Below, piece by piece: positions 13,327 through 40,076 of a stretch of DNA of 64,000 nucleotides. The stretch is from NCBI RefSeq assembly GCF_000759435.1, contig NZ_JRJG01000006.1:1-64000 (forward strand). Direction: 5' to 3'. Origin of the DNA: Hoeflea sp. BAL378. Lineage in GTDB: Bacteria > Pseudomonadota > Alphaproteobacteria > Rhizobiales > Rhizobiaceae. The notes beneath the pieces were generated by a model. That model saw only the letters and a list, made by a program, of their open reading frames with translations. It was not told the origin of the DNA and did not search any database. Each line of letters starts with the position of its first letter. Positions within the stretch are counted from its first letter, which is position 1. Position numbers and translations under genes: made by a program.

Positions 13327-13335
13327 GATCCGGTT

Positions 13336-13364
13336 GCGGGGGCGGCATGGGATGCCGCCCCCGC
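13336..13364 (+). other. Perfect 13-bp intercistronic hairpin after dppA-type gene
   Basis: GCGGGGGCGGCAT and its exact complement flank a GGG loop, starting 9 bases after the binding-protein stop. No T-tract follows and the operon continues 50 bases later. It is therefore more likely an mRNA-stabilising or attenuating element that raises binding-protein expression above the rest than a full terminator. Confidence 0.75.
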
Positions 13365-13414
13365 TTCCTTGCGCCCAGATCGGCAGCACACCACCCTTCC
13401 TCACAGGAGATTTT

Positions 13415-15876: not shown

Positions 15877-15898
15877 TCGAGCCAGAAAGCAGGCAGCC

Positions 15899-16873: not shown

Positions 16874-16878
16874 GCGCC

Positions 16879-20883: not shown

Positions 20884-20950
20884 AGGGACTCGGAGGGCGC
20901 GCCTCACGCAATGCCGCAAGCGGGCTTATTGCCATAGAAATGGGTTGAAC

Positions 20951-24823: not shown

Positions 24824-25603
24824 CTAAGTGTACTGCGCCGGTTGCTTTGTCTTGAAGGCGGTAAGGCCCCGGGCCAGGTCTTTGCCTTCCACATGCAGGG
24901 CGAACCGTTCGAGTTCGGCTTCAATCCGGCCTTGACGATCCGGTGAACGCGATCTGCTGCCGGTCAGGAACTTGATGTGGGCGACGGCCTCGGGGCTGCG
25001 GTGGCTGATGTTCCGGGCTATTTCCAGCGCCCGGGCCATCAGCTGTTCTGGAGGGACAACTTCGTTGACCAGGCCCCAGTCCCTGAGCGTTTCCGCTTCG
25101 ACGAGCCTGGCGGTGTAAAACAGGTCGGACGCCCGCGAATGCGATATACGCTCGCCGAGCCGGACGGTGGCGCCGGCGGCCGGCACCACGCCGTAGAGCG
25201 TGTGCCCGTCTCCGATCAGCGCACCCTGAGCGGCCAGGAGAATGTCGCAACAGAGCAGTGTCTCCAGGCCCCCGGCGACGGCCGTGCCGTTGATCGCCGC
25301 GATCACCGGTACCGGCAGGTCCTCGAGGCGTTGCAGCACGCCCATGTTGTAGCGCAGATAGTCGAGCAGTGTCTGTTTGCCGGTGCTGAGCGCCTCTTCG
25401 AATTCGACCAGGTCGCCGCCGGCGGAAAAGGCGCGTCCGGCGCCGGTGAGGATCACCACGCGAAGGCCCGGAAGCGTGGCGAGATGCACCAGCTGGCCGT
25501 CCAGCGACTTCATCATCGCCTGCGACATGGCGTTGAGGCTTTCGGGGCGGTTCAGCGTCAGAACGGCAATGCCGTCCTCGTAGGCGAGCGTGACCGATTC
25601 CAT
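24824..25603 (-). CDS. Enoyl-CoA hydratase/isomerase (crotonase) family protein
   Basis: 259 residues, typical crotonase. The oxyanion-hole segment AFSAGGDL is at 58-64, and GTAVAGGLET contains Glu114, equivalent to the first catalytic Glu of hydratases. At the place of the second catalytic Glu the sequence reads GDGHTLYGVVP with His134, so a plain hydratase mechanism is doubtful; other family reactions (isomerase, hydrolase, retro-Claisen) remain possible. It starts 1 base after the stop of the acyl-CoA synthetase gene and ends the operon. It probably acts on the CoA ester made by that enzyme. Confidence 0.88.
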   Translation of the reverse strand: MESVTLAYEDGIAVLTLNRPESLNAMSQAMMKSLDGQLVHLATLPGLRVVILTGAGRAFSAGGDLVEFEEALSTGKQTLLDYLRYNMGVLQRLEDLPVPVIAAINGTAVAGGLETLLCCDILLAAQGALIGDGHTLYGVVPAAGATVRLGERISHSRASDLFYTARLVEAETLRDWGLVNEVVPPEQLMARALEIARNISHRSPEAVAHIKFLTGSRSRSPDRQGRIEAELERFALHVEGKDLARGLTAFKTKQPAQYT

Positions 25604-25604
25604 C

Positions 25605-27497
25605 CTAAGTGCTCCCCTGGGTCCGTCGTATCTCGTAGGTTTGCGGTAGCGGCTTCAGCGCCGCGTCAAGGGCGCCGGCTTGTTCGGCGGTCGCGCCGGC
25701 AATCGTCACCTCCACGCGCGTTCGCTTCCGCTCATCCAGACGCACATCGGCCTGAACCTCGACGGAGGAGCCGCAAATCCGCTCCGCTTCCAGCCGAACC
25801 TTCTCGGCAATCGCCCTGTCGCGCAACGCCGGCTTGAACAGCTTGCCGACGGCGGTGACCGGCAGGGCATCGATCATGATGATGCTCCTCGGCCAGGCTG
25901 GCCGTTCGTTAACATGGGTTTCCAGATGCTGGCGCAGCGCGGCCATGTCCAGCTCCGCGCCGGCTGTGGCGACCACGAACAGGGCCGGCACCTCGCCGGC
26001 ATACTGGTCCGGCATGCCGACTGCGGCGCTGATCTCGACGCCCTCGAACTGGTTGGCGACGTCCTCGATCGCCGCCGGATCGATATTGTGCCCGCTACGG
26101 ACGATCAGGTCCTTCTCCCGCCCGGTGAGAAACAGCCGCTGGTCCGGCGCGAGATAGCCGACATCGCCGGTGGTGAGCCACCCGTCGGCGTCGAGCGTGC
26201 CGTGATTGTGGGCGGGATCGACATAGCCGGGAAAGACCTGCGGCCCGCGCACCTGGACGATGCCGCTCTCGTTGGGAGCGCAGATTTCGGGCTCGTCGGA
26301 ATGAAGCCGCAGGATCCGGGTCTCGGAAAAGGGCGCGCGAAATCCCACGCTGCCAGCAACCGGAGTCCCGTAACCGGGATTAAAGGCGATGGCTGCCGCC
26401 GTCTCCGTCATCCCATAAGTCTCGTAGAGCCGGATCCCGGTGGTGGCGGTGAACCGCGTGCCGATTGCCTTGGGCAGGACCGCGCCGCCGGTGACGGCCA
26501 TCCGCACGGATGACACGTCCGTGCCAGGTTTCCAGGAATTGGTGACCGCCCCGATGGAGGTGGGTACGCCGCCGACCACGGTCGCCCTGTGGTGGACGAC
26601 GATATCCCAGTAGCGCTCGACAACCGGCGCAAGCCGCATGCCGTAGGGCGAGGGCACGATCACATGACCGCCCGCGGCAATGACCGAAAGGCCGACCGTC
26701 ATGGTTCCGCCGACATGGAAGAACGGGAAGCCGTTGATGACGGTGTCGCCCTCGTCATAGCCGAAAACCTGGGCGAAACCGAAGGCGGCGTGGATGTGGT
26801 TGCCGTGGGTTAGGCGGACCAGTTTCGGCCGTCCGGTGGTGCCGCCGGTGTGAAACAGCGCGCAGATTGCGTCGCGGTCCGAAGTCGCCTCGAAGGCGAG
26901 TGCGTCCCCGTCGCAATTCTGGAGGGCTTCGTCGAGCCGCATGTAGCCGCTCAGGCCTTCGGTGTCGCCGCCGATGACGATGACCTGGCGCAGAGACGGC
27001 ACCGCCTCGAGCGCGCCCAGCGCGTTCGACCAGCACATCTCGTCGACGGCCCTGGCCGGTACGACCAGGATGGTGGCCTGCTCGGCGTCGAGAAGATCGA
27101 AAATCGCGTGGCGGCTGAGAAGATAATTGATCGAACTGGCGGCGCCCGCCACCTGCGCGCCCCAGAGCAACGGCGGCAGTTCGGGAAGCGTCGGCGACAG
27201 GAACGCCGCCACGCCCTTGCCGGGAGCCAGGCCCATTTTGTGGAACAGGTTCGCCGCGCGCGTGACTTGCAACAGCAGGTCGCGGTGGGTGAGAACCGCC
27301 GCCCCACCGTCCGGGTCTTCCGACCGCTGCACCGTCAGCGCCTTCGCGTCGCCGGCGTGAAACGCGGTGGCGCGGAAGAGGTCGTGGATGTTCCTGGCGG
27401 TGACAAGCTCGTCATAGGGGCGGCCTTCGATGGCCACGATGTCCTCGATCGTCCGGACCCGGGCCACGGGCCTCGTGGTCTTGAGTGGCCTCTCCAT
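25605..27497 (-). CDS. Acyl-CoA synthetase (class I adenylate-forming enzyme)
   Basis: 630 residues. The ATP-binding loop HTGGTTGRPK, the YETYGMTET motif, the TGDVGYL hinge-adjacent Asp and the LTGREKDLI motif place it in the AMP-forming acyl-CoA ligase family; the C-terminal VGKLFKP contains the likely catalytic Lys. Family members activate carboxylic acids as acyl-AMP, then acyl-CoA. The start at 27497 overlaps the upstream ATPase stop by one base (TGATG); the longer upstream frame lies inside that gene. In this operon it would activate an acid released after uptake. The acid's identity is not shown. Confidence 0.9.
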   Translation of the reverse strand: MERPLKTTRPVARVRTIEDIVAIEGRPYDELVTARNIHDLFRATAFHAGDAKALTVQRSEDPDGGAAVLTHRDLLLQVTRAANLFHKMGLAPGKGVAAFLSPTLPELPPLLWGAQVAGAASSINYLLSRHAIFDLLDAEQATILVVPARAVDEMCWSNALGALEAVPSLRQVIVIGGDTEGLSGYMRLDEALQNCDGDALAFEATSDRDAICALFHTGGTTGRPKLVRLTHGNHIHAAFGFAQVFGYDEGDTVINGFPFFHVGGTMTVGLSVIAAGGHVIVPSPYGMRLAPVVERYWDIVVHHRATVVGGVPTSIGAVTNSWKPGTDVSSVRMAVTGGAVLPKAIGTRFTATTGIRLYETYGMTETAAAIAFNPGYGTPVAGSVGFRAPFSETRILRLHSDEPEICAPNESGIVQVRGPQVFPGYVDPAHNHGTLDADGWLTTGDVGYLAPDQRLFLTGREKDLIVRSGHNIDPAAIEDVANQFEGVEISAAVGMPDQYAGEVPALFVVATAGAELDMAALRQHLETHVNERPAWPRSIIMIDALPVTAVGKLFKPALRDRAIAEKVRLEAERICGSSVEVQADVRLDERKRTRVEVTIAGATAEQAGALDAALKPLPQTYEIRRTQGST

Positions 27498-28993
27498 CAG
27501 TGCACCGCCGCGTACATGATCGTGTGTTCGTCGGCCTTGCGGCCTTCGAACTCCTCGACGATGCGGCCCTGGCGGCAGACCAGGATGCGATCGGAGATCT
27601 GCAGGATTTCCGGCAGATAGGAGGAGATCACGAGGACCGCGACACCGTCGTCGGCGAGCCGGTTGATGAGCTGGTGGATCTCGGCGATGGCGCCGACGTC
27701 GACCCCGCGCGTGGGTTCGTCGAAGATCACCAGCCTGGGCTTCTGCACCAGCGCCTTGGCCACGACCACCTTCTGCTGGTTGCCGCCCGACAGTTCGATC
27801 ACGCGGGTGTCGTTGTCGAGCGCGCGCACGCTCAGCGCCTCGCTCCAATGTTGGGCGATCGCCTTCATCTCGCGGATGCTGACCGTCCAGGATTTGGTCT
27901 GTCCGCCCGCGAGCGCGCCCAGGTGAATGTTCTCGGCGATCGACATGGTTTCGAAGAAGCCCTCGAGCTTGCGATCCTCGGTGACATAGATGATGCCGTC
28001 GCGCACCGCCGGACGCGGTACCCGGTAGCGCACCGGCCGGCCGAACAGCCGCACCTGGCCGCCGTGGAAGAAGTCGCGCTTCATCACCCCGGCGATCACC
28101 TTGGCGGCTTCCGTGCGGCCCGATCCGATCAGCCCGAACATGCCGGTGATCTGGCCGGCGAAGATCGAGAACGAGGTGTTGCGGACGATGTTGTTCATCG
28201 ACAGGTTCTGCACGCTGAGCACCTTCTCGCCGGCGCGGCGCACCTTGCGTTCAGCGTGCGCGCCGTAGAGTTCGTCCGACAGCGTGCGCCCGACCATGGC
28301 CCGAACGATCTTCTCGCGGTCGAAATTGGCCGTCCGGTCGGTGATCACATGTTCGCCGTCGCGCATCACCGTGAGCCGGTCGGAGATCTGCAGGGCCTCT
28401 TCGAGCGCGTGGCTGATGAAGATGATCGAAACGCCGCGCTTGCGGAGCCGCTCGACCAGCGAGAAGAACTGATGCTTTTCCTCGGGCGTCAGCGTCGCGG
28501 TCGGCTCGTCGAAGATGATGACCCGGGCGTTGTGGTGGACGGCGCGGGCGATCTCGACCATCTGCTTCTGGCCTGCGCCAAGGCTGGAGACGAGCGCCGT
28601 CGGGTCGACGTGGAAGTTCAGCGACTGCAGGAATTGCTGGCCGGCGATGTAGATGCCGCGCAGGCGGTGAAAGTGCTTGTCGTCGGTGAGATAGATGTTC
28701 TGCGCCACGGTCAGCGACGGCACCAGGCTGGTCTCCTGGTAGACCATGGCGATGCCGCGCCTGAGCGCGTCGGACGGCGTCGGCAGATCGACAGTCTTGC
28801 CGTCGAGCAGGATCTCGCCGGCGCTCGGCTGCACCACGCCCGCGAGCATCTTGGTGAGCGTCGACTTGCCGGCGCCGTTTTCGCCCAGCAGCGCGTGCAC
28901 CTCGCCCTCCTCGAGGGTGAAGGTGACATCCTTTACCGCGGGCACGCCGCGATAGGTCTTGGTGCCGTTTCTGAGTTCCAAGAGTACGGTCAT
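27497..28993 (-). CDS. Sugar-type ABC transporter ATP-binding protein (RbsA type)
   Basis: 498 residues with two ATPase halves. The first has Walker A GENGAGKST and signature SLGAGQKQMVE. The second has the degenerate Walker A GLIGSGRTE that is normal for this family, with signature ELSGGNQQKVVVAKAL. One polypeptide serves both permease subunits. The start overlaps the SMP-30 gene stop by ATGA. The company of acyl-CoA genes and propellers suggests the substrate is not a simple sugar. Confidence 0.92.
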   Translation of the reverse strand: MTVLLELRNGTKTYRGVPAVKDVTFTLEEGEVHALLGENGAGKSTLTKMLAGVVQPSAGEILLDGKTVDLPTPSDALRRGIAMVYQETSLVPSLTVAQNIYLTDDKHFHRLRGIYIAGQQFLQSLNFHVDPTALVSSLGAGQKQMVEIARAVHHNARVIIFDEPTATLTPEEKHQFFSLVERLRKRGVSIIFISHALEEALQISDRLTVMRDGEHVITDRTANFDREKIVRAMVGRTLSDELYGAHAERKVRRAGEKVLSVQNLSMNNIVRNTSFSIFAGQITGMFGLIGSGRTEAAKVIAGVMKRDFFHGGQVRLFGRPVRYRVPRPAVRDGIIYVTEDRKLEGFFETMSIAENIHLGALAGGQTKSWTVSIREMKAIAQHWSEALSVRALDNDTRVIELSGGNQQKVVVAKALVQKPRLVIFDEPTRGVDVGAIAEIHQLINRLADDGVAVLVISSYLPEILQISDRILVCRQGRIVEEFEGRKADEHTIMYAAVH

Positions 28994-30084
28994 CGGAGCG
29001 ATCCTTCCTCACCGGTTCCGGCATCGCATGCGACGACGACTCCGTCGCCGCTGGCTGCGATGAAGACGCGGCCCTGATGCTCGGCCATGTCGGTCACGCC
29101 ATGGGTGTCGCCATCGGCGCGGCTGTGCAGGCTGGCTGTGGGCTGGAATCCGCGGTCGAGGCGCACGCAGAGCCCGGCCGATAGAGCCGGCGCCCAGGGC
29201 TTGAGCAGGCCGAGCTGCTTGACGCTGCCGCCCTGCAGCGGTTCGTAGAAGCTGCGCCCGCTGCGCAGGGACGGCGCGATCCAGAAAGGTCTCGGCACCT
29301 CGGCGATCATCCGCGTCTTGTAGGCGCGCTCGCGCAGAACGAATTCGACGAGCTGGCTGCGCGGCGCGAAGATCGCCAGCCATGCGCCGCCGTCTTCGGC
29401 GGGCGCCAACCGGCCCGGATACCCAGGCAGGTCGGAATGGACCGCCACCGGCTCCCCGCCTGTGAGCGGCAGGCGCGCCAGCCTGTGCTTCCAGGCCTCG
29501 CTGAACACGAGGCTGTTCCCGTCCAGCGCCAGTCCGGCCGGCCAGGCAAGCCCATCGGCGAGGCGTCGGCCCTTGCCGCTGTCGCGGTCGATGCGCCAGA
29601 GGCTGCCCGAGGCGTTGCGCTGCATCAGGTCCAGCTGCCAATCCGGCGCAGGATTGGTGGCCGAGCCGTTGGCGAGAAAGATCGCGGTCGGCGAGGTGGC
29701 GATGGCGGTGATGCAGCGCAGGCCTTCGGGAACCCGGTAGCTGCGCCCCTCGGAGGAACCGCCCTCGATGAGGATGTCGCCGGTCTCGAGCACGACCGCG
29801 AGCCCCTCGTCGCCGATGGCCGCGATGCAGGCGATGCGGCCGTCGAATTTGCGCCAGGGCTGCCAGGCGGTGCCATCCGCAAGCCGGTAGAGCGTGGTGC
29901 CGGCTGAGGCAACCGGGGAGCCGAAAAGCACGGCAATTGCATCAACGCCCGGAAGCGGCCAGCGCGTCCTGGCCTCATCGAGCCGCCGGTTCGGCCGCAA
30001 CGCGCCGTCGAGCGCCGGGACGGTGACCGCCGCGTCGCCGCGCCCGGTCAGATTGTCGATGGCTCTCAGAACCGCGCCGATCAT
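28990..30084 (-). CDS. SMP-30/gluconolactonase-like beta-propeller protein
   Basis: 364 residues. Repeated propeller-type strands occur with motifs such as DGLAWPAGLALDGNSLVFSE and LPGYPGRLAPAEDGGAW, which align with strictosidine-synthase/SMP-30 blades. It is a diverged relative of the propeller fused to the permease just upstream. No signal peptide, so cytoplasmic. Family members are Ca2+-dependent lactonases or esterases. The start at 30084 overlaps the fusion gene stop by ATGA and gives MIGAVLRAI; longer upstream frames lie inside the fusion gene. Weaker blade conservation than the fused domain means catalytic activity is uncertain. Confidence 0.78.
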   Translation of the reverse strand: MIGAVLRAIDNLTGRGDAAVTVPALDGALRPNRRLDEARTRWPLPGVDAIAVLFGSPVASAGTTLYRLADGTAWQPWRKFDGRIACIAAIGDEGLAVVLETGDILIEGGSSEGRSYRVPEGLRCITAIATSPTAIFLANGSATNPAPDWQLDLMQRNASGSLWRIDRDSGKGRRLADGLAWPAGLALDGNSLVFSEAWKHRLARLPLTGGEPVAVHSDLPGYPGRLAPAEDGGAWLAIFAPRSQLVEFVLRERAYKTRMIAEVPRPFWIAPSLRSGRSFYEPLQGGSVKQLGLLKPWAPALSAGLCVRLDRGFQPTASLHSRADGDTHGVTDMAEHQGRVFIAASGDGVVVACDAGTGEEGSLR

Positions 30085-32195
30085 GTCCGCCCCCAATAGG
30101 ATTTCGGCCCCGTCCAGCCTGTATCCGCGCCGTCGAGCTTGAGCCGGCCGATGCGGTTGTTGGAAATGCCGCCGATATAGAGATGACCCTTGTGCTCGCG
30201 CATCGAGGTGATCATCGGATGGTTTTCGCCGCCCAGATCCCACATCACGTCGAGAATTTGGCCGGTCTCGTCGAAGCGGACTACGCAACCGGTGTTGATG
30301 TTGGGATAGAGCCATTCGTCGGGCGCGATGCGCCGGGCCATGCGCTTGCGGAAGCCCGGCATGCGCATCGAAAGGTCCACCGAAGGCGTGCGCATGCCCA
30401 CCAGCGCCAGCCAGAAGGTGCCGTCCGACGCCCGGTTGATGTTGTCGGGATAGCCGGGCAGGTTCGGGATCACCGGCTCGACCTTGCCCTTCTTCGGCCC
30501 GGCGAAATAATAGCGGCTGACGCGGCAGGCCCAGGTCTCGGCGAACAGGAACGACTGGCCGTCATGGGTCATGCAGATGCCGTTGGGAAACACCAGGTTC
30601 TTCAGGATCGTCTGCGTGGTGTTGGTATTCGGGTCGTAGCAGATGATGCGACCGTTGCCGCGCGCTTCCAGGCTGTCGACCGGCCATTCGTGCATGTCGT
30701 AGCGCACGGTCGCCTCGCTGAAATAGATCCGCCCGTCGGGCGCGACGTCGAGGTCGTCGGCCAGCCGCAAACGGGAATCGTCGATGATCGTGAACAGCGA
30801 GCGGTTGGTCTCGTCCGTCAGCTTCTCGACCTCGCGGTCCTTCGTCACGCGGTAGAGCCCCATGCCGCCGACGCAGACCAGCAGCGCGCCGTCGGGCGCG
30901 AACGCCATGCCGAGCGGCCGGCCGCCGATATGGGCGTAGATTTCCTGCTCCTTGTAGTCGGGGGCCAGGAAGCGGACGATGTCGCCGGTGCGGTTGCCGG
31001 CGTAGATGTGGTCGTCGTCGTCGAGGATGACGTCCTCGGGTCCGTCGATGGCGCCAAGGCCGATCAGCTCGACCGGGCGCAGCTTGTCGTTGAGCGCATA
31101 GGGCGAGTCTCCTTCGGTCGCAGGCGCCGGCGGCAGCGGCGCGAAGGTGGGCGAGACATAGACATTCGACAACAGCTTGTGGCGGTTCTTGAGCCAGCGC
31201 ACATCGATGGCCACCGCAGCCAACAGCACCAGCCCCAGAAGCAGCGAGTTGGCGCCGCTGCTCACGCCGAGCCGCACCATGGAATTGACCATGATCATCA
31301 CGGTGATCGCGCCAATCAGCGCCTTGACGGCGGAGCCGCGGCCGCCGCCGAGACTGTTGCCGCCAAGCACGGCGGCGGTGAGCGCGGTGATCTCGAGTCC
31401 GATGCCGGTATCGGCGCCCGCTCCGCCGAGCCGCGAGGCGAACAGCAGGCCCGCGAGCGCACACAGCGCCCCGGAGACGACATAGGTGATGCAGACGACC
31501 CGGCGGACCGGAATGCCGACATTGTGGGACGAACGGCGGGATCCGCCGGTGGCGAGAATGTGCCATCCCGCACGGGTGCGGCTGAGAACAAGATGCAGGA
31601 TGGCGGCGATGACAAGGGTCATGAAGACGCTGAACGGCATGCCCAGCAGGAAGCCTTCCCCCAGATAGTACCAGGCGTCGGAATCGATGAAGCCGCCGGC
31701 GATGGCGACCGAATATTTCAGCAGCAGCATGTCGACGATGGCGCGCACGATGATCAGCGTCACCAGGGTCGTCAGGAAGGCGCGCAGCCTGAGGTAGCCG
31801 ACCAGGATACCGTTGACGAGGCCCACCGCCGCGCCGCAGGCGATGGTCGCGGCAATGGCCGCCGGCATGGTCCATTCCGCCACCGACATCAGGGTCAGGG
31901 CCACGATGTTGCCGAGCGCGAAGGTCGAGCCGACGCTCAGGTCGATGCCGCCTGCCACCATCACGATCATCAGCGCCAGCACCAGCAGGCTGAACTCTCC
32001 CCACTGCCTGAGCAGGTTGGCAAGGCTGGATGCGCCGAAGAAATCGGGGATCGCGGAGCCGAACACCGTCACCACCGCCATCAGGATGAGAACCGGAATG
32101 GCGTTGTCGATCCAGCGCTTGGTCAGGATCTCGCCGAGGAGGTGATCGGGCACGGCACGATAGCGCCAGCGCATGAGCGTGTCGGATACGGACAT
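30081..32195 (-). CDS. ABC permease (RbsC type) fused to strictosidine-synthase-like/SMP-30 beta-propeller
   Basis: 704 residues in one uninterrupted frame. Residues 1-340 are a sugar-type permease with about nine helices and the motifs AGGIDLSVGS (82-90) and LGGNSLGGGRGS (277-288). A Pro-rich linker spans ~345-365. Residues ~375-704 form a propeller with GPEDVILDDDDHIYAG, RLADDLDVAPDGRIYFSEA, FPNGICMTHDG and NLPGYPDNI, matching strictosidine-synthase-like/APMAP proteins, which include lactonases and arylesterases. RbsC C-termini normally face the cytoplasm, so the enzyme domain should sit at the exit of the channel. The gene follows the binding-protein gene and overlaps the stand-alone propeller gene. 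Coupled uptake and lactone or ester hydrolysis is my inference. Confidence 0.9.
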   Translation of the reverse strand: MSVSDTLMRWRYRAVPDHLLGEILTKRWIDNAIPVLILMAVVTVFGSAIPDFFGASSLANLLRQWGEFSLLVLALMIVMVAGGIDLSVGSTFALGNIVALTLMSVAEWTMPAAIAATIACGAAVGLVNGILVGYLRLRAFLTTLVTLIIVRAIVDMLLLKYSVAIAGGFIDSDAWYYLGEGFLLGMPFSVFMTLVIAAILHLVLSRTRAGWHILATGGSRRSSHNVGIPVRRVVCITYVVSGALCALAGLLFASRLGGAGADTGIGLEITALTAAVLGGNSLGGGRGSAVKALIGAITVMIMVNSMVRLGVSSGANSLLLGLVLLAAVAIDVRWLKNRHKLLSNVYVSPTFAPLPPAPATEGDSPYALNDKLRPVELIGLGAIDGPEDVILDDDDHIYAGNRTGDIVRFLAPDYKEQEIYAHIGGRPLGMAFAPDGALLVCVGGMGLYRVTKDREVEKLTDETNRSLFTIIDDSRLRLADDLDVAPDGRIYFSEATVRYDMHEWPVDSLEARGNGRIICYDPNTNTTQTILKNLVFPNGICMTHDGQSFLFAETWACRVSRYYFAGPKKGKVEPVIPNLPGYPDNINRASDGTFWLALVGMRTPSVDLSMRMPGFRKRMARRIAPDEWLYPNINTGCVVRFDETGQILDVMWDLGGENHPMITSMREHKGHLYIGGISNNRIGRLKLDGADTGWTGPKSYWGRT

Positions 32196-32260: not shown

Positions 32261-33256
32261 CTACTGCTGGGACGGCATTTTCCAGCAGGAGCCCGGCTGC
32301 ATGTTGTCCTTGGTCAGGAACTCGAGCTGGGTGAAGAGCGTGGTCTTCATCGAGCCCGGCTCAGCCTTGAGCTGCAGCATCTGCTTGATCATGTTGGCCA
32401 TGTCGCGGGCCTGGCCGGGGACGTTGTAGACCACAACCTCCGAATAGGTGCCGTTTTCGAGCCCGTCGCAGGCCGACTGGTTTCCGCCGCCCTGGGTGAT
32501 CAGGTAGACATCCTTGCCCGATTCCTTGATCGCAGCACCCGTGCCGACATCCATGACGTCCCAGAATCCGGCGATGGCGCACAGGTCCGGATGCTGCTGG
32601 ATCACGGTCGCGGCAATGTTGCGGGCCTTGGTGGCGTCCCAGTCTGCGGCCTGGTTGGACACCAGCTCGATCTCGGGATGCTCGGCCAGGACATCCATGA
32701 TGCCCTTCATCTGGTAGGCGCTGGCCGCGGCCGTCAACACGCCCTGGGTGACGGCGATCTTGCCGCTGCCGCCATTGGCGGGCGAGCATATCTCGACCAG
32801 CCGCTCCGCGATCTGGCCGCCCATGCCGACATAATCGGCGCCGATGAAGGCGTCTGTCGAATAGCTCGAGCGCATATTGACCTGGACGACATAGATGCCG
32901 GCCTCTTCGGCCTTCTTCAGCAGCCGCGCATAGGACTGGACATCCGGATTGTGGACCACCAGCACGTCTGGCTTCTCCGAGATCAGCGACGTGATTGCCT
33001 GGGCTCCCGCGTCGGTGCTCCAGTTGGGATCGCGGATCTCGAACTTGACGCCGAGCGGCTCGAGCGCCTCCTTAAGTCCCGCGGCCCAGCCTTCGGTCAG
33101 GTCGAAGCCCATGGCGACGGGAACATAGGCAACCGTCTTGCCCTTGAAGGCCTCGAAATATTCGGCCCGGGTCGGGTCGTCGATTCCCTGGGCCAGGACA
33201 GCGCCGGCGCTCAGCGCAAAAGTGGCCGCGATCATGCAAGTCTTGATAGGTCTCAT
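32261..33256 (-). CDS. Sugar-type ABC transporter solute-binding protein (RbsB type)
   Basis: 331 residues with a signal peptide ending near Val-Leu-Ala-Gln (residue 23), hence periplasmic. The Peripla_BP_4-type fold is indicated by KTVAYVPVAMG, ISEKPDVLVVHNPD and VQVNMRSSYSTDAFIG. A GGGAGG site lies just before the ATG. It is encoded between the two permease genes. The ligand is not readable from sequence; the operon points to a compound carrying a lactone or ester and a carboxylate rather than a plain sugar. Confidence 0.9.
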   Translation of the reverse strand: MRPIKTCMIAATFALSAGAVLAQGIDDPTRAEYFEAFKGKTVAYVPVAMGFDLTEGWAAGLKEALEPLGVKFEIRDPNWSTDAGAQAITSLISEKPDVLVVHNPDVQSYARLLKKAEEAGIYVVQVNMRSSYSTDAFIGADYVGMGGQIAERLVEICSPANGGSGKIAVTQGVLTAAASAYQMKGIMDVLAEHPEIELVSNQAADWDATKARNIAATVIQQHPDLCAIAGFWDVMDVGTGAAIKESGKDVYLITQGGGNQSACDGLENGTYSEVVVYNVPGQARDMANMIKQMLQLKAEPGSMKTTLFTQLEFLTKDNMQPGSCWKMPSQQ

Positions 33257-33280: not shown

Positions 33281-34255
33281 TCAGATGTCCCCTTGCTGAG
33301 CGGTCTGCTCGTCGCGGGGGTTGAGGATCGTGTCGATCACGATTGCCGTAAGAAGGATGACGCCCTTGATGACGTTCTGCAGCGTGTACTCGATGTTCAT
33401 GATCGTCATGCCGTTGAGCAGCACGCCGATGAGCAGCGTCCCGACCACGACATTGCGGACATTGCCGCGACCGCCCGACAGTCCGATTCCGCCCAGCACC
33501 ACCACCAGGATGATGTCGTAGACCATGGTGGAATTCGCGACGCGGGTGTTCATGCTGGCGATGGATCCGGCGGTCACCAGGCCCGCGGCAAAGCCGATCA
33601 GCGATGAGATCATGTATTGCAGGACGATGATCGGGCGCGCCGGAATGCCGGTGATGCGGGCCGCGGGAAGGTTGTCGCCGACCGCGCGCAAATAGCGCCC
33701 GTAGGTGGTCCAGCGCAGGAACAGCGTGGCTGCCGCGCAGACCGCGATGAAGGCGAGGATCGGGGCCGGGATGCCGAGCAGCGAGCCTTGCCCGATCCAT
33801 TGCAGGGCCTGGGCGCTCTCGGGCATGTAGATGACGTCGAGGGTGAAGAGGAAGTAGCGGCCGAAACCGTAGATCGCGATCCCCATGGCGAGCGTTGCGA
33901 AGATCGCGGGGATCTCGACATAGGCGATCAGGATGCCGTTGATCATGCCTACGGCGAGGCTGAAAGCGAGGCCGAGCGCGACCGCCTGCGGCAGGCTCAT
34001 GCCGTTGGCGACAAGTTGCAGCGTCCAGGCCACCGAGATGGCCATGAGCGCCACAAGCGACAGGTCTATGCCGCGGCCGATGACGACAAGCCCCATCGCC
34101 ACGCCGAGAATGCCGAGGATCGACACGCTGCGCACGAGGTTGAGCAGATTGTTGGTGGTCAGGAAGCCGGGCAGCATCACGGCGAAGCCGGCGCACAGCA
34201 ACAGTGCCAACCCGAAGACGATCTGTTCCTGGCTCAGGCGCCCGAGACCTTGCAT
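33281..34255 (-). CDS. Sugar-type ABC transporter permease (RbsC type)
   Basis: 324 residues with nine or so hydrophobic helices. GRGIDLSLVALMA and VLGGIGLSGGRGN match the two conserved RbsC loops. The start at 34255 has a GGGAGGAG site 4 bases upstream; an upstream in-frame ATG has none. First gene of the seven-gene operon. It probably pairs with the fused permease as a heterodimer, since only one ATPase gene is present. Confidence 0.9.
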   Translation of the reverse strand: MQGLGRLSQEQIVFGLALLLCAGFAVMLPGFLTTNNLLNLVRSVSILGILGVAMGLVVIGRGIDLSLVALMAISVAWTLQLVANGMSLPQAVALGLAFSLAVGMINGILIAYVEIPAIFATLAMGIAIYGFGRYFLFTLDVIYMPESAQALQWIGQGSLLGIPAPILAFIAVCAAATLFLRWTTYGRYLRAVGDNLPAARITGIPARPIIVLQYMISSLIGFAAGLVTAGSIASMNTRVANSTMVYDIILVVVLGGIGLSGGRGNVRNVVVGTLLIGVLLNGMTIMNIEYTLQNVIKGVILLTAIVIDTILNPRDEQTAQQGDI

Positions 34256-34345
34256 GTTCTCCTCCCACAGAGCATGACCGTCAATCTCCGCAAGAGAAGG
34301 GTCATTTCGGGAGCCTAAATTCATGCAGCTTCAGCCGTCTTTTCT

Positions 34346-34515: not shown

Positions 34516-35466
34516 ATGGAACTTGTCTTTACGACGGACAATCTTGCGCGCGCCAAGCGCTATGCCGCCTGGCAGGCGGCGATCTGCGACTTTTACGTTC
34601 ATGTCGATGTCAGGGCGACGCAGCCCGAGGATTATCGCGGTTTCATCCGCGAGGCCTGTTTCGGCGACGTCGTGCTCACCGACATCCTGCTGTCGGAACA
34701 AAGCATCCGGCGCAACGGCCAGCACATTTCCCGGCTCGACAAGGATTGCTACTACCTGCAACTGATCCATCACGGGCATCTCAATGTGCTGCAGCGCGGG
34801 GAAACCCATTCGTCCAACGCCGCGCGGGGGGCAATTTTCTACGCCACCGAACAATACGAGCTGCAGTGCATCGGCCAGGCCCGATCCTTCTATGTGGAGG
34901 TGCCACGGCTCGCTTTCGCCCGCCGGTTCCCCAATGGCGAGGTCCCCATCACCGGCACACTCAACACGACGCAGGGGCTGGGGCGGATCGCGGCCGAGTT
35001 CTGCTCCATGCTCGCGGCAGAGGCCTCACGTCTCGACGCCGCCATGCGCAGCCAGCTGGGCGAGCAGCTGGTGGATCTGCTGGCTGCGGCCTTGATGGCG
35101 CCTGAGGGAGACATGCCGATGCTCGACGGCTCGGTGCAGAAGGCGCGCCTTCGCTCCGTGCAGCAATGGATCGAGGACCATATCGGCGACCCCGACCTTT
35201 CCCTCGAGCGGGTTGCGGCGGCCAACGGCATGTCGCTGCGATACCTGCACCAGATTTTCCGGCACTGCGACAAGTCGGTGTCGGAGTGGATCTGGGGCCG
35301 GCGGCTTCAGCTTTGCTATGACCGGCTCGCCAAGGGGGAGGGTCCGTCGATCACATCGATAGCCTTCAACTACGGATTCAACAGTTCGGCCCATTTTTCC
35401 ACGGCCTTCCGCCGCAAATATGGAATGTCCCCGCGCGAAATAGTGCGCAGGGATCCGCAGGACTAA
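34516..35466 (+). CDS. AraC-family transcriptional regulator
   Basis: 316 residues. The N-terminal ~200 residues resemble the AraC_binding_2 domain (DFYVHVDVRATQ, DCYYLQLIHHG). The C-terminal ~100 carry two helix-turn-helix motifs (LSLERVAAANGMSLRYLHQIF and SITSIAFNYGFNSSAHFSTAF). A GAGGAGGGGG site precedes the ATG. It is divergent from the permease/propeller operon, so it most likely controls it. The effector is presumably that operon's substrate. Confidence 0.9.
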   Translation: MELVFTTDNLARAKRYAAWQAAICDFYVHVDVRATQPEDYRGFIREACFGDVVLTDILLSEQSIRRNGQHISRLDKDCYYLQLIHHGHLNVLQRGETHSSNAARGAIFYATEQYELQCIGQARSFYVEVPRLAFARRFPNGEVPITGTLNTTQGLGRIAAEFCSMLAAEASRLDAAMRSQLGEQLVDLLAAALMAPEGDMPMLDGSVQKARLRSVQQWIEDHIGDPDLSLERVAAANGMSLRYLHQIFRHCDKSVSEWIWGRRLQLCYDRLAKGEGPSITSIAFNYGFNSSAHFSTAFRRKYGMSPREIVRRDPQD

Positions 35467-35502: not shown

Positions 35503-36237
35503 TCAGGACCCTTCGTTGTCCGCTTGGTCCGCAGCATGCTTGTAAAATCGCCTGATCGCCAGATGAGCTGACCGGATATCGAGATTGATGGCCCAGCGCG
35601 CTGCTGCCCGGTCTCTTCGCTCTACGGCCTCGATCGCATCGTCATGGATGCGGAACCCTATGTGGAACAGCCTGTCGAAGAGCTTTGCGTCCTTGCGCGC
35701 GGACGCCACGATCGGCCCGGTCCGGAGCCAGAGCGTGGAAATCAGGTCTAGGAGCTGCGGATAGCCGCCGGCCCGGTAAAGCTCGAAATGGAAAGCCTGG
35801 TTGCCTGCCAGTGCGGCATCGAAATCGCCGACGGCCAGAGCTTCGGCCATGCTGTCATTGTGGCGCTTGAGCGAATCGATCAGTGCCGGGTCCTTCGGCG
35901 CGCTCGCCGCCCGCTCGGCGGCGTAGCCTTCAAGCTGCATGCGAATGCGGATGTAATTCTCGTGATCCGATGCCAGATAGGGCGCGACGCGAAGGGTTCG
36001 CGGCCCGGATTGCTCGATCGCGCGTTCTGCGATCAGCCGGGCGAGCGCCTCGCGCACCGGCATAGCACTGGTGCCGAGCACCTCGGCGAGGGAACGAATC
36101 GAGATTTGTTCGCCGGGAAGGAATTCGCCCCTGAGAAGACCCAGCCGAAGGCTCTGGTAGACACGCTCCTGCACCGTGGACACATCTACCGGGACAAGCG
36201 TGCGCTGACCCTTGTTCATCAATTTGAATGTGTTCAC
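35503..36237 (-). CDS. GntR-family transcriptional regulator (FCD type)
   Basis: 244 residues. The N-terminal winged helix spans about 20-85 (VYQSLRLGLLRGEFLPGEQ, then LAEVLGTSAMPVREALARL). An all-helical FCD effector domain occupies ~95-235. The start is read as GTG at 36237 with a weak GAGG site; an ATG at 36219 is the alternative. Divergent from the Liv-type operon with a palindrome at 36395-36418 in between, so it is its likely regulator. Confidence 0.9.
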   Translation of the reverse strand: MNTFKLMNKGQRTLVPVDVSTVQERVYQSLRLGLLRGEFLPGEQISIRSLAEVLGTSAMPVREALARLIAERAIEQSGPRTLRVAPYLASDHENYIRIRMQLEGYAAERAASAPKDPALIDSLKRHNDSMAEALAVGDFDAALAGNQAFHFELYRAGGYPQLLDLISTLWLRTGPIVASARKDAKLFDRLFHIGFRIHDDAIEAVERRDRAAARWAINLDIRSAHLAIRRFYKHAADQADNEGS

Positions 36238-36418: not shown

Positions 36419-36539
36419 AATCTTTACAGAGTAGAATTCCTGTGTTTAGACTGCCGCCGTGTCCGAGGAGGGCACCGGGAAATGCAAACCACCCGGTCGC
36501 AACGGCACGCATGCAAACATCATCCGGGAGGAGAAGAAC

Positions 36540-37772
36540 TTGAAACGTCTCGCCATGATCGCGGCCACGTCCGCAGCGGCCCTGACCGCGTCCCCGCTTC
36601 ACGCCGAACCCTTGAAGATCGGCATCATCGAAAGCCTGTCGGGCGCACAGACGTCGACGGGCCGTCTTTACGCCAATGCCGTCAAATACGGCGTTGATCG
36701 CATCAACGAAGCCGGTGGCTTCAACGGCGAGCCTGTCGTGGTTACCGAATATGACAATGCCGGCGGAGCGCCCGATGCGGCGGACAAGTTCCGCAATGCC
36801 GTGGCCGACGGCGTCGACATCATTTTCCAGGGCGCTTCGTCGGCCATTGCCGGCCAACTGACCGAGGATGTGCGCAAGCACAATCTGCGCAATCCCGGCG
36901 ACGAGGTGATCTTCATCAACCTCGGCGGCGAGGCGATGGAGCTGACCGGCGAAAAGTGCCAGTTCTACCATTTCCGCTACACGACGACCGCACCGATGCG
37001 CGTGAACGCGCTGGTCGGCGCGATGAAGGAATCCGGTGATCTGGGGACCAAGGTCTATTCCATCAACCAGAACTATTCCTGGGGCCAGGACATGCAGGCC
37101 GCGGCCGCCGCGGCCGCCGCGGACGGCGGCTATACGGTGGTCGATGAAGTCCTGCACGACGTCAACAAGATCCAGGACTTCGCGCCCTTCGTGGCGCGGA
37201 TCAGCTCAGCCGCTCCCGATACGGTGTTCACCGGCAACTGGTCGAACGACCTGCTGCTCCTGATGAAGGCCGCAGGCGACGCAGGCCTGGACGTGACCTT
37301 CGCCACGGCCTTCCTCGACCAGCCCGGCAACATTGCGAACGCCGGCAAGACGGCGATTGGCCATTACATCGCCAACAATTATGACAATGCGGCCACCGAC
37401 GGAAAATTTGCCGAGGACTACAAGACGGCGACCGGGCATTACCCGATCTTCGTGGAAGGCCATTCCGCCTTTGCCCTCGGCGCGCTGCAACAGGCGCTGG
37501 GCACGGTCGATTTCGGCGGCGGCGACATCGACGTGACCAAGATCGCCCTGGCGCTGGAAAACACCACCTATGAAACTCCGCTCGGTCCGGTCTCGGTCCG
37601 CAAGGAAGATCACCAGACGATCCGCCCTGTGGTGGTGTCCAAGGTCGTGGAGAATCCCAAATATCCGGCAGATGAAACCAACATGGGCTTCGAGACCGTC
37701 AAGGTCATTGCCGGCGAGGACGCCATCTATCCGGTGCAGGACAGCTGCAAGATGGAACGCCCCGCAGAGTAA
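36540..37772 (+). CDS. Branched-chain-type ABC transporter solute-binding protein (LivJ/K family)
   Basis: 410 residues if started at TTG 36540, which has a GGGAGGAG site 6 bases upstream and yields a clean signal peptide (MKRLAMIAATSAAA, cut near residue 21). An upstream ATG at 36459 would add an unlikely polar leader. Peripla_BP_6 features include KIGIIESLSGAQTSTG and YSINQNYSWGQDM. Periplasmic receptor for the transporter encoded downstream. The later genes suggest a hydroxy- or keto-acid ligand rather than leucine, as inference. A hairpin follows at 37786-37820. Confidence 0.9.
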   Translation: MKRLAMIAATSAAALTASPLHAEPLKIGIIESLSGAQTSTGRLYANAVKYGVDRINEAGGFNGEPVVVTEYDNAGGAPDAADKFRNAVADGVDIIFQGASSAIAGQLTEDVRKHNLRNPGDEVIFINLGGEAMELTGEKCQFYHFRYTTTAPMRVNALVGAMKESGDLGTKVYSINQNYSWGQDMQAAAAAAAADGGYTVVDEVLHDVNKIQDFAPFVARISSAAPDTVFTGNWSNDLLLLMKAAGDAGLDVTFATAFLDQPGNIANAGKTAIGHYIANNYDNAATDGKFAEDYKTATGHYPIFVEGHSAFALGALQQALGTVDFGGGDIDVTKIALALENTTYETPLGPVSVRKEDHQTIRPVVVSKVVENPKYPADETNMGFETVKVIAGEDAIYPVQDSCKMERPAE

Positions 37773-37785
37773 TCCTCCCAGGACC

Positions 37786-37820
37786 GTGACCCGGTCGGCG
37801 CAAGCCGCCGGCCGGGTCAC
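37786..37820 (+). other. 9-bp intercistronic hairpin after livJ-type gene
   Basis: GTGACCCGG (37786-37794) pairs exactly with CCGGGTCAC (37812-37820), and an inner CGGC-GCAA-GCCG stem can extend it. It starts 13 bases after the binding-protein stop and 26 bases before the permease ATG. No T-tract, so mRNA stabilisation or partial attenuation is likelier than full termination. Confidence 0.7.
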
Positions 37821-37846
37821 CCGTGCCCCATCATCCCGGAAGTCCC

Positions 37847-38788
37847 ATGGAATTTGCGATCATCTCCACGCTCAACGGCGTGACCTACGGCCTGTTGCTG
37901 TTCATGGTCTCCGCCGGCCTCACCCTCATCTTTGGCATGATGGGTGTCCTCAACTTCGCCCACGCGTCGTTCTACATGATGGGCGCCTATGTCGCCTATG
38001 CGGTTTCCTCGGTCTTCGGCTTCTGGGTCGGGATCCTGGTGGCGCCGATCGTCGTCGGCCTCGCCGGCATGGCGGTGGAGCGCTTCCTGCTGCCGCGGGT
38101 CCATGCCCACGGTCATGCCCATGAACTGCTGCTGACCTTCGGCCTGGCGCTGATCATCGAGGAACTGATCAAGATCTTCTTCGGCGATTTTCCGGTGAAC
38201 TATCAGATGCCCGCCGAGCTGCGGTTTTCCGCCTTCGAGGTTTTCGGCGCCACTTACCCGTTCTACCGGCTGTTTATCGGAGCCGTGGCCGTGGTGATGT
38301 TCGCTGCCCTGTGGGTGCTGCTGACGCGGACCCGCACCGGCATCGTGGTGCGCGCCGCCGAGCGGCTTCCAGCCATGGCGGAAGCCCTGGGGCACAACAT
38401 TCCGATTGTCTTCATGTTCGTGTTCGGCACCGGCGCAGCGCTTGCCGGACTGGCAGGGGCGGTGGCGGGAGCGTTCTACCCGACCAACCCGAACATGGCG
38501 CTCGAACTTGGCGTGATAGTGTTCGTGGTTGTCGTCGTCGGCGGGCTCGGCTCTCTCAAGGGATCGTTGCTGGCCTCGCTGATGATCGGGCTCTTCTCCT
38601 CGTTCGCCGTGGGCCTCGACTGGTCTCTCGCCAACCTCCTGGGCGTCGTCGGTCTCGGTGACTGGGCCCGGTCCGTCGGCGGGCTGCTGACCCTGGAGCT
38701 GTCCTCGATCAGCGCAACGATCCCCTTCGCGCTGATGCTGATCGTCCTGCTGGTGCGTCCGGCCGGCCTGATGGGCGAGCGGAACTGA
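37847..38788 (+). CDS. Branched-chain-type ABC transporter permease (LivH family)
   Basis: 313 residues with about eight helices. LNGVTYGLLLFMVSAGLTLIFG and GVLNFAHASFYMMGAY are diagnostic of LivH. The start at 37847 has a GGAAG site and begins MEFAII; an in-frame ATG 24 bases upstream lies in the hairpin region. It is followed after 1 base by the LivM-type gene. Inner-membrane channel subunit. Confidence 0.92.
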   Translation: MEFAIISTLNGVTYGLLLFMVSAGLTLIFGMMGVLNFAHASFYMMGAYVAYAVSSVFGFWVGILVAPIVVGLAGMAVERFLLPRVHAHGHAHELLLTFGLALIIEELIKIFFGDFPVNYQMPAELRFSAFEVFGATYPFYRLFIGAVAVVMFAALWVLLTRTRTGIVVRAAERLPAMAEALGHNIPIVFMFVFGTGAALAGLAGAVAGAFYPTNPNMALELGVIVFVVVVVGGLGSLKGSLLASLMIGLFSSFAVGLDWSLANLLGVVGLGDWARSVGGLLTLELSSISATIPFALMLIVLLVRPAGLMGERN

Positions 38789-38789
38789 G

Positions 38790-40076
38790 ATGATGACCAT
38801 GCGAAACCTTCTCCTTCTCGCAGTCGCGCTGGCCCTGCTCGTCATCGTCCCGCCCTTCCTGGGACTGGGCTGGCAGAACATGCTGGTCAATGTGCTGATC
38901 GCCAGCCTGTTTGCTCTGGCGTTCAACCTGCTGATCGGCCAGGCCGGTCTGCTTTCCTTCGGCCATGCCGCCTATTTCGGGGTGGGCGCCTTCGCCGCGC
39001 TCCATCTCATGCGGGCGATCGAGGGCGGGCTGCCGTTTCCGACTCCGCTCGTGCCCCTGGCCGGCGCCGCGGCCGGCCTGCTCATCGGCCTGATCGCCGG
39101 CTACTTCGCGACCATGCGGTCGGGGGTCTATTTCGCCCTCGTCACTTTGGCGATCGCCGAGCTGTTCCATTCGCTGGCTCCGCAATTGGAAGGGGTCTTC
39201 GGCGGCGAATCCGGCATATCCTCGATGCGGATGCCGTGGAACGGCATCGTCTTCGGCTCGATGCTCGAGGTCTATTACCTGACCCTGGCATGGGTCCTGG
39301 TCTGCGGCTTGGCGTTGTGGGCCTATACCCGCACGCCTTTCGGACGGCTGACGCTGGCGTTGCGGGACAATGAGCAGCGGGTGCGCTTCCTGGGCTACAG
39401 CGCCCATACCGCCAAGGTGATCATCTTCACGGTCTCGGCAATGCTGACCGCGGTGGCCGGCTCGCTGCAGGCGATCTCGATCGAGACCGCGAACTATTCG
39501 CTGTTCGCAAGCAACGTGTCGGCCCAGGTCGTGCTCCAGACCTTCGTCGGCGGATCCACCGTGTTCTTCGGGCCGGTCATCGGGGCTACGGCGTTCACGC
39601 TGTTTTCGTTCCTGGTCTCCGACCTGACCCGCTCCTGGGTGTTCTATCAGGGCCTGATCTTCGTCCTGGTGATGCTCTATGTCCCCACCGGCATCGGCGG
39701 CGTCATCCAGCACCATATCCACAATCGCCGGCAGCTCGACTGGCGGAACATGGCTGGCCACTACGTGCTGGCGTTTGTCGGCGCGTTGCTGCTCACGGCG
39801 GGCGTGGTGTTCCTGACCGAAACCGTCGCGGTGCTGTTCGGCGAGGACTACGCCATGGTTCGGCACAATGCCGAGGGCGGCCTGCCGCCGTTTGAACTCT
39901 TTGGCGCCAGCTGGAATCCAACCGGGCTTCTCACCTGGCTGCTTCCGATCGTTCTTCTGATCGGCGGTGGCGCACTTCTGATCCGCGCCCGACGCAGGAT
40001 CAGCACCATCTGGGATCGCAAGGGCCCGAGCAATGCGACAGCGACAGAACCGCTGCTCGCGGGAGGTGCGAAATGA
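38790..40076 (+). CDS. Branched-chain-type ABC transporter permease (LivM family) with C-terminal extension
   Basis: 428 residues. The first ~310 match LivM (NLLIGQAGLLSFGHAAYFGVGAF at 46-69, and TFVGGSTVFFGPVIGA). The last ~115 residues add two further hydrophobic segments (~323-347 and ~381-400) and a basic tail, beyond the usual ~320-residue LivM end. The extension is in frame and free of low-complexity sequence, so it looks genuine. The stop overlaps the LivG-type start by ATGA. Confidence 0.9.
   Translation: MMTMRNLLLLAVALALLVIVPPFLGLGWQNMLVNVLIASLFALAFNLLIGQAGLLSFGHAAYFGVGAFAALHLMRAIEGGLPFPTPLVPLAGAAAGLLIGLIAGYFATMRSGVYFALVTLAIAELFHSLAPQLEGVFGGESGISSMRMPWNGIVFGSMLEVYYLTLAWVLVCGLALWAYTRTPFGRLTLALRDNEQRVRFLGYSAHTAKVIIFTVSAMLTAVAGSLQAISIETANYSLFASNVSAQVVLQTFVGGSTVFFGPVIGATAFTLFSFLVSDLTRSWVFYQGLIFVLVMLYVPTGIGGVIQHHIHNRRQLDWRNMAGHYVLAFVGALLLTAGVVFLTETVAVLFGEDYAMVRHNAEGGLPPFELFGASWNPTGLLTWLLPIVLLIGGGALLIRARRRISTIWDRKGPSNATATEPLLAGGAK

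Follow-up and report, generated by a model that had tools for sequence, protein, structure and literature searches.

The analysed window, a 64,000-nucleotide stretch of contig NZ_JRJG01000006.1 from Hoeflea sp. BAL378, contains on its minus strand a five-gene cassette coding for a putative ABC importer. The first gene (33281..34324) codes for permease 1, an unfused protein of the RbsC/AraH type (PF02653, 6.4e-28). It is followed by a periplasmic substrate-binding protein (32261..33256; Peripla_BP_4, PF13407, 5.9e-45), whose N-terminus looks like a signal peptide by eye. The third gene (30081..32195) codes for a 704-residue protein in which an RbsC-type permease is joined to a strictosidine-synthase-like (SSL) propeller, predicted to be six-bladed. 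The fourth (28990..30084) codes for a second, free propeller of 364 aa, whose ATG overlaps the stop codon of the fusion (ATGA), and the fifth (27497..28993) for an RbsA/AraG-type ATPase with two ABC stretches (PF00005), although the AraG and RbsA models scored below cut-off.

Two further minus-strand genes follow the cassette. The first (25605..27497) codes for an AMP-binding acyl-CoA synthetase (PF00501, 3.2e-55, searched as 25605-27488; PRK07529, 541 bits against a cut-off of 632) and the second (24824..25603) for a protein of the enoyl-CoA hydratase/isomerase family (PF00378, 9.1e-52). Relatives of this ligase and hydratase were found together in 18 of 96 fetched loci, and both genes were considered clade-specific cargo and not part of the core cassette. 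On the opposite strand, an AraC-family regulator (34516..35466; FeaR-like, below cut-off) is the probable regulator of the operon, with relatives in 21 of 96 loci, L042-L058 among them.

To check if the fusion was real, the minus-strand frame 30081-32195 was translated, yielding 704 residues plus a stop without interruption. Pfam searches detected, all above the curated cut-off, BPD_transp_2 (PF02653) at residues 58-327 (3.3e-36; 125.2 bits, cut-off 26.8), SSL_N at 365-409 (1.7e-14), SGL (PF08450) at 414-600 (1.1e-15; 58.4 bits, cut-off 26.3) and Str_synth at 480-566 (7e-23), the latter with a higher score (81.0) than SGL. An AlphaFold2 model showed long helices to about residue 346 and propeller strands from residue 376, with a mean pLDDT of 83.1 and a pTM of 0.61, so that domain orientation is not fixed. 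The best PDB matches by Foldseek were strictosidine synthases, TGW6, paraoxonase-1 and DFPase. The protein was divided into a permease half (31158..32195, residues 1-346), a linker (31071..31157, residues 347-375), of which Y346 and P349 are invariant in both alignments made (27 and 63 rows), and the propeller (30084..31070, residues 376-704).

To determine if the fusion was conserved, 297 genomes of the order were searched. A match at E<=1e-60 was found in 36 of them, and 44 of the 48 matches ran through essentially the whole query in one open frame, none with an internal stop. Of the other four, three are cut by contig ends and one is a separate 377 aa permease. In a sample of 337 genomes of the class, 10 of 10 propellers at 52-100% identity lie in frames of 713-759 aa, 14 of 14 at 34-39% identity are stand-alone proteins (358-412 aa), and the two remaining rows (31%) are second propellers beside a fused one. 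The fusion was not seen split at 50% identity or more, and it was also found in complete plasmids. This conservation excludes chance and assembly error. Therefore, the original prediction of one uninterrupted frame joining both domains was confirmed, with the right coordinates and length; the strand, which it did not state, is minus.

The surroundings of the fusion were then compared in the fetched loci. The 79 genome loci are the best 80 of at least 565 relatives by similarity, and some of them are nearly identical (L060-L063); of 16 plasmid hits 10 were opened, and seven regions were chosen by hand, three of them because they hold HMG-CoA reductase. Where enough flanking DNA was present, permease 1 was found upstream in 91 of 91 cassettes, the binding protein in 96 of 96, a second propeller without the metal-ligand positions in 94 of 94 and the ATPase in 90 of 90, and the whole unit was complete in 82 of 82.

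Residues at the metal-ligand positions of the superfamily were counted in rows of over 250 aa only, that is, in 101 fused and 96 second propellers, the window included in both. In the fused propeller these positions are E387 (31035-31037), D480 (30756-30758), N538 (30582-30584) and D584/N585 (30441-30446). E387 was present in 101 of 101 rows, D480 in 98 with N480 in the other 3, N538 in 101, D584 in 99 and N585 in 101. Therefore, the four positions are kept in 99 of 101 rows if D584 is counted, the exceptions being two Acidisoma loci (L077 and L085), or in 101 of 101 if N585 is the fourth ligand. The latter is suggested by the alignment with TGW6 (8kg3), the best PDB match by sequence, in which E387, D480, N538 and N585 map onto Glu-59, Asn-167, Asn-226 and Asn-272 (residues named in PMC10958001). 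In contrast, 0 of 96 second propellers keep all four positions, with R at the place of N585 in 89 of 96. The second propeller of the window scored 20.4 bits with Str_synth, below the cut-off of 25, but its AlphaFold2 model (pLDDT 89.7, pTM 0.88) matched strictosidine synthase by Foldseek. One row (L078), in which the second propeller was read in a wrong frame, was left out of the structure alignment.

To predict on which side of the membrane the fused propeller lies, the helices of the model were assigned by us to ten spans and the charges of the connecting segments were counted. The mean K+R of the presumed inner segments was 4.29, 0.00, 1.95, 3.48, 1.00 and 4.94, against 0.00-0.14 for the presumed outer ones, so both ends of the permease half, and with its C-terminus the propeller, are predicted to be cytoplasmic. 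A periplasmic propeller was rejected on this basis. In addition, the second propeller of the window has no strongly hydrophobic N-terminus (best 17-residue mean of 1.48 in its first 80 residues), whereas 19 of 20 stand-alone bacterial relatives examined start with a hydrophobic segment (1.69-3.02), the other one being L147 (0.93), whose start is uncertain.

The cassette was compared with its closest known systems. With the RbsABC and AraFGH importers of the CUT2 type it shares the permease family, the double-ABC ATPase and the Peripla_BP_4 binding protein, but it has two different permease genes, one of them fused to a propeller, plus a free second propeller, and the NCBIfam sugar-transporter models listed all scored below cut-off; the neighbouring genes also argue against a sugar in many loci. 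The LsrCD autoinducer-2 importer has two different PF02653 permeases and is not known to carry a propeller, and its LsrC and LsrD models matched only weakly (112.5 and 104.5 bits against cut-offs of 388 and 500). Unfused relatives of the permease, 43% and 41% identical to that of the window, were found in two genomes (G220 and G921) between a binding protein and an RbsA-type ATPase, in the same order and without a propeller in the stretch read; in G921 the permease is instead fused to the ATPase (846 aa). Therefore, the propellers look like an addition to a working importer.

Regarding the propeller, the SSL proteins of the N6P superfamily share with it the fold, the Str_synth and SSL_N domains and the ligand positions, but it differs from them in being fused to a permease and predicted cytoplasmic, and from TGW6 in having D at the place of Asn-167 in 98 of 101 rows. 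Strictosidine synthase shares the propeller fold, but T663 stands at the place of its catalytic glutamate (Glu309) in both printed alignments, which are weak there, and T was found in 100 of 101 rows, with a gap in the other, so strictosidine synthase activity was rejected. Paraoxonase-1, DFPase, Drp35 and the beta-propeller lactonase RPA3624 share the fold, with marginal sequence similarity for DFPase and Drp35 (E 0.001-0.008 in a weak profile match), and are not known to be fused to a transporter; a literature search for RPA3624 gave nothing of use.

A lead on the substrate came from HMG-CoA reductase, found in 9 of 96 loci, with HMG-CoA lyase relatives in 8 of those 9. Both enzymes belong to the mevalonate catabolism of Pseudomonas mevalonii, although literature searches on mevalonate transport did not reveal how mevalonate enters this organism. 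The reductase of locus L059 passes the degradative model TIGR00532 (428 bits, cut-off 260) and matches 1qax with 671 bits. A reductase-linked copy of the fusion is present in Shinella sp. HZN7. In the order sample three genomes hold both the fusion and HMG-CoA reductase, and in 3 of 3 one of the genome's fusion copies lies under 5 kb from the reductase. In a quick tree, from which two fusion rows cut by contig ends (L083 and L116) and L121 (whose extrapolated start ran over an upstream stop, the annotated start lying inside) were left out, the linked fusions need at least three changes, and a single clade was rejected (p-AU 9.9e-96). In contrast, 33 of 36 genomes with HMG-CoA reductase in the order sample have no match to the fusion, and each of the three with both has two further fusion copies away from the reductase. 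Of six further carriers two have the reductase, one about 15 kb away on the same contig and one about 257 kb away. The window's genome has no HMG-CoA reductase match, so the mevalonate lead does not transfer to it. As the neighbouring enzymes differ between clades, one shared substrate for all cassettes was rejected as unlikely, although these neighbour counts stand without a background rate.

The reading that we favour, with a probability of about 0.5, is that of an RbsABC/CUT2-like ABC importer in which the second permease carries a hydrolase at its cytoplasmic exit. In this view, the binding protein would deliver a small lactone or ester, the permease pair driven by the RbsA-type ATPase would move it in, and the fused propeller, with a divalent metal held by E387, D480, N538 and D584/N585, would hydrolyse it to the open acid, which could not flow back and would enter CoA-linked catabolism. 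The second propeller would be a structural or regulatory partner, perhaps docking on the fused propeller or on permease 1. In the copies linked to HMG-CoA reductase the substrate is probably mevalonate or mevalonolactone, although mevalonate itself needs no hydrolase, whereas in the window an unidentified acid would be activated by the ligase and processed by the hydratase; ferulate-type or anhydromevalonate chemistry was considered for these two enzymes as conjecture only. Most SSL proteins appear to keep four metal ligands and are more likely hydrolytic (PMC4215206), and TGW6 is described as an IAA-glucose hydrolase, although it had no calcium in the crystal (PMC10958001) and no activity is known for any fused propeller. 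The analysis itself shows the fusion, the cassette, the conservation and loss of the ligand positions and the linkage to HMG-CoA reductase in some copies; the fold and topology are predicted, whereas metal-dependent hydrolysis, the identity of the substrate, the pairing of the propellers, the trapping of the product and the coupling of uptake to hydrolysis are inferred.

The original interpretation, uptake coupled to immediate hydrolysis by a lactonase-like domain at the channel exit, was therefore only partly supported. None of the findings named beforehand as grounds to discard it was encountered, namely homologues always split at residue ~345-370, a frameshift in the assembly or the loss of all propeller metal ligands, and the predicted cytoplasmic C-terminus agrees with it. 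However, the propeller belongs to the SSL branch rather than to plain SMP-30, and both the second propeller and the fixed five-gene cassette had been missed. Group translocation remains a hypothesis. In its boldest form, which we consider doubtful, the lactone or ester bond would be broken by a hydrolase built into one permease as the substrate leaves the channel, with a catalytically dead twin propeller as an obligatory subunit, making uptake one-way by chemistry as well as by ATP.

If the fused propeller is an enzyme, this would be an ABC importer family in which transport and the first catabolic step share one polypeptide, a design that our literature searches for such a fusion or for enzyme-ABC fusions did not turn up. 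It gives a concrete candidate for bacterial mevalonate or mevalonolactone uptake, and a natural pair of putatively live and dead propellers to study why pseudo-enzymes are kept. It also exposes a naming problem, as automatic database names show either the transporter or the enzyme half, so that the family is hidden.

Among the alternatives, the one that survives best, although unlikely, is that the fused propeller and its partner act as a gate that binds the internal product, or a metal, and switches the importer off, as C-terminal regulatory domains do in some other ABC importers. The conserved second propeller fits a sensing or clamp pair, and the propeller would lie on the ATPase side if the topology is right, but a pure sensor would not be expected to keep the metal-ligand set in 99 of 101 rows while neighbouring pathways change. 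Less likely still is a metabolic scaffold, in which a hydrolase or binding module tethered to the membrane would hand substrate to soluble CoA-ligases or transferases without coupling to uptake. Relatives of the sampled CoA-ligases, CoA-transferase or acyl-CoA dehydrogenases lie in 52 of 96 loci, again without a background rate, but those genes are not constant while the fusion is, and tethering for an outside partner would allow split versions, which were not seen at 50% identity or more. Detoxification of reactive lactones, esters or organophosphates at the membrane, with the importer taking up something else, is improbable; the fold matches paraoxonase-1, DFPase and Drp35, and the superfamily holds esterases, lactonases and phosphotriesterases (PMC4215206), but the neighbours that recur are catabolic, such as HMG-CoA reductase plus lyase. 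Two genes joined by a sequencing error is refuted by the conservation described above.

The surroundings of the stand-alone relatives were also inspected, and 0 of 14 lay beside ABC genes within the fetched flanks of up to 1.5 kb. Two long open frames that might have been other fusions were followed: one (L181) is an ordinary stand-alone propeller of 354 aa, whereas the other (L177) proved, on reading further, to be a permease fused to its ATPase, without propeller.

To check if the frame at 30081-32195 encoded a single protein, its minus strand was translated, giving 704 residues without interruption. Pfam searches detected a full BPD_transp_2 permease domain (residues 58-327) followed by SSL_N (365-409), SGL (414-600) and Str_synth (480-566), all of them above their cut-offs. 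The AlphaFold2 model has long helices to about residue 346 and propeller strands from residue 376 on (mean pLDDT 83.1, pTM 0.61), and a Foldseek search placed the predicted propeller with strictosidine synthases and TGW6, and then with paraoxonase-1, DFPase, Drp35 and the lactonase RPA3624.

To determine if this fusion was conserved, its relatives were searched in several genome samples. Among 297 genomes of the order, 36 had a match at E<=1e-60, and 44 of the 48 matches were full length, none with an internal stop; of the remaining four, three were cut by contig ends and one was a separate permease. Of 93 long matches in the best genome loci and the plasmid loci, 92 were read without a stop, the exception being locus L121, in which the stop lies upstream of the annotated start. 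In a class sample of 337 genomes, the search with the propeller split cleanly, as 10 of 10 rows at 52-100% identity lay in frames of 713-759 aa, whereas 14 of 14 at 34-39% were stand-alone proteins and 2 rows at 31% were second propellers. In 398 genomes of the phylum, 18 had a match, 11 of them with the full fusion, all in the window's class, 6 with a propeller only and 1 with a permease only. Named carriers include Hoeflea, Mesorhizobium, Bradyrhizobium, Sulfitobacter, Variovorax, Paraburkholderia, Alcanivorax and, on plasmids, Shinella, Salipiger, Celeribacter and Pantoea. Among 72,556 plasmid records, 16 were hits, 15 of them covering at least 80% of the query. The nearest named record was a Hoeflea MAG at 95% identity. 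Therefore, this is a conserved protein family, although record annotations give only one half of the protein: for the 16 plasmid hits, the listed name was SMP-30/gluconolactonase/LRE family protein in 10, an RbsC or ABC permease name in 2, and none in 4. No paper describing the fusion was found in searches of an open literature library on the fusion or enzyme-ABC fusions, mevalonate uptake, strictosidine-synthase-like proteins, RPA3624 and TGW6, although most subscription papers lay outside its scope and absence from print is thus not shown.

The fusion is part of a five-gene cassette. Upstream of it lie the genes for permease 1 (33281-34324) and a binding protein (32261-33256), whereas downstream a second propeller gene (28990-30084), overlapping by ATGA, is followed by the ATPase gene (27497-28993). 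Across 101 cassettes in 96 loci, and counting only those with enough flanking DNA, permease 1 was found in 91 of 91, the binding protein in 96 of 96, the second propeller in 94 of 94, the ATPase in 90 of 90, and all four around the fusion in 82 of 82. As these loci were chosen for similarity to the fusion (the 79 best genome loci, 10 of 16 plasmid hits and 7 regions picked by hand) and are not independent, these counts show how strict the cassette is among fusion carriers, not how common it is. An in-frame ATGA overlap of the fusion and the second propeller was seen in 70 of 97 cases. Repeated cassettes were also detected in loci L073, L042, L047 and L084, three in a row in a Dongia MAG locus and two (some cut by the locus end) in the other three loci. 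In addition, the window's genome holds a second, distant copy of the cassette with all five genes (locus L168, G000:C36:15000-32688), whose fusion is 44% identical.

Relatives without propellers were also found. The permease-only hit of the order sample (genome G220, 43% identity) lies between a binding-protein gene and an RbsA-type ATPase gene, with no propeller between them. In the phylum sample, genome G921 (41% identity) has a binding protein and then, without a propeller, a single 846 aa frame in which the permease is joined to its own double ATPase (locus L186, G921:C14:675000-680000, positions 1433-3973, minus strand). So the importer type can presumably work without propellers, and the two propellers look like an addition between permease and ATPase, although this rests on two genomes.

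To analyse if the propellers could be active, the putative metal-ligand positions were compared among the cassettes. In the fused propeller, E387 was kept in 101 of 101 rows, position 480 was D in 98 and N in 3, N538 was kept in 101, D584 in 99 and N585 in 101. The two exceptions at position 584 belong to Acidisoma (loci L077 and L085), in which D584 is A or S while the other ligand positions are kept, making them natural test cases for that residue. The authors of the TGW6 study found no calcium in this protein and noted that calcium-binding relatives have at least two acidic residues there (PMC10958001); the fused propellers have D at position 480 in addition to E387 in 98 of 101 rows. In contrast, none of the 96 rows of the second propeller kept all four ligands, the place of N585 being R in 89, position 480 T in 81 and that of E387 D in 82. 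This protein is still predicted to fold as a propeller (pLDDT 89.7, pTM 0.88, with support from Foldseek) and has its own conserved positions. A review of the superfamily states that the huge majority of strictosidine-synthase-like sequences other than the proven synthases appear to keep four metal ligands and are more likely hydrolases (PMC4215206). The catalytic glutamate of the synthase is replaced by T663 in two alignments, both of them weak. On sequence evidence, one propeller thus looks alive and the other dead.

To predict on which side of the membrane the fused propeller lies, the helices of the model were assigned by us to ten spans and positive charges were counted over 63 sequences. 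Mean K+R counts were 4.29, 0.00, 1.95, 3.48, 1.00 and 4.94 for the presumed inner segments and 0.00-0.14 for the presumed outer ones. Therefore, both ends are predicted to be cytoplasmic. By contrast, 19 of 20 stand-alone strictosidine-synthase-like relatives (loci L137-L150 and L178-L183) begin with a hydrophobic segment, although starts were chosen mechanically and that of the exception, L147, is uncertain. So fusion appears to have put a normally exported or anchored propeller on the other side of the membrane, at the channel exit, a step that is a prediction.

As a lead to the putative substrate, the neighbouring genes were compared. A relative of HMG-CoA reductase lies in the fetched neighbourhood in 9 of 96 loci (L059, L079, L086, L088, L091, L124, L165, L166 and L167), with an HMG-CoA lyase relative in 8 of these 9, whereas two more loci, L073 and L094, have the lyase alone. 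As L165-L167 were fetched because of the reductase, the unforced count is 6 of 89. The L059 reductase passes the degradative model TIGR00532 and matches 1qax with 671 bits, and the copy of Shinella HZN7 is annotated as degradative reductase; the L073 lyase passes NF004283 and matches 1ydn. In the order sample, 36 genomes have the reductase and 36 a match to the fusion, and 3 have both (G105, G087 and G224), each with three fusion copies, and in all three one copy lies under 5 kb from the reductase. Among six further carriers, two have the reductase, about 15 kb and about 257 kb away. On the fusion tree, the linked copies need three changes if L073, whose upstream side is cut, is left uncounted, and four if not, and holding them as one clade is rejected on the quick tree. 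Mevalonate, which closes to mevalonolactone, is thus a plausible substrate for those copies.

Other clades lie beside different genes. Alcohol and aldehyde dehydrogenases are both present in 12 of 96 loci, in some with CoA-transferase and a dehydratase-type gene, whereas other cassettes lie beside 2-oxoacid dehydrogenase E1/E2, or beside 3-hydroxyisobutyrate-dehydrogenase-like and MmgE/PrpD genes. In loci L065, L066, L068, L071, L078, L093, L111 and L122, the cassette is next to alcohol and aldehyde dehydrogenases, several with CoA-transferase, FAS1-type dehydratase or MmgE/PrpD genes, which looks like a branched C5-acid pathway. In loci L100, L107, L115 and L130, it is near 2-oxoacid-dehydrogenase E1/E2 genes and short-chain dehydrogenases (clusters 5, 31 and 32), hinting at a hydroxy- or keto-acid substrate. 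The window's own clade has an AMP-dependent acyl-CoA ligase, an enoyl-CoA hydratase and an AraC-type regulator, and its genome has no HMG-CoA reductase match. The common theme, small acids that enter CoA metabolism, is an inference made without a background rate.

In the most likely model, an ABC importer would deliver a lactone or ester to a hydrolase built into its second permease, hydrolysis would give an acid that is trapped and passed to CoA activation, and the dead propeller would be a structural or regulatory partner. Whereas the fusion, the cassette and the pattern of ligand conservation are read directly from the sequences, catalysis, the substrate and the role of the second propeller are inferred. 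We give a probability of about 0.5 to the hydrolysis of the transported compound, whereas a true coupling of uptake and hydrolysis, as proposed in the original prediction, is considered less likely. The main alternative is that both propellers form a regulatory pair.

Elsewhere in the window, on the plus strand, a branched-chain-amino-acid-type ABC transporter (36459-39680; binding protein at 36459, PF02653 matches at 37868 and 38877) lies beyond a GntR-type regulator at 35503-36237. A protein that looks by eye like the PrpF isomerase family is encoded at 20945-22120 (plus strand), in a plus-strand run with peptide-type ABC transporter genes (about 11737-19837, also by eye).
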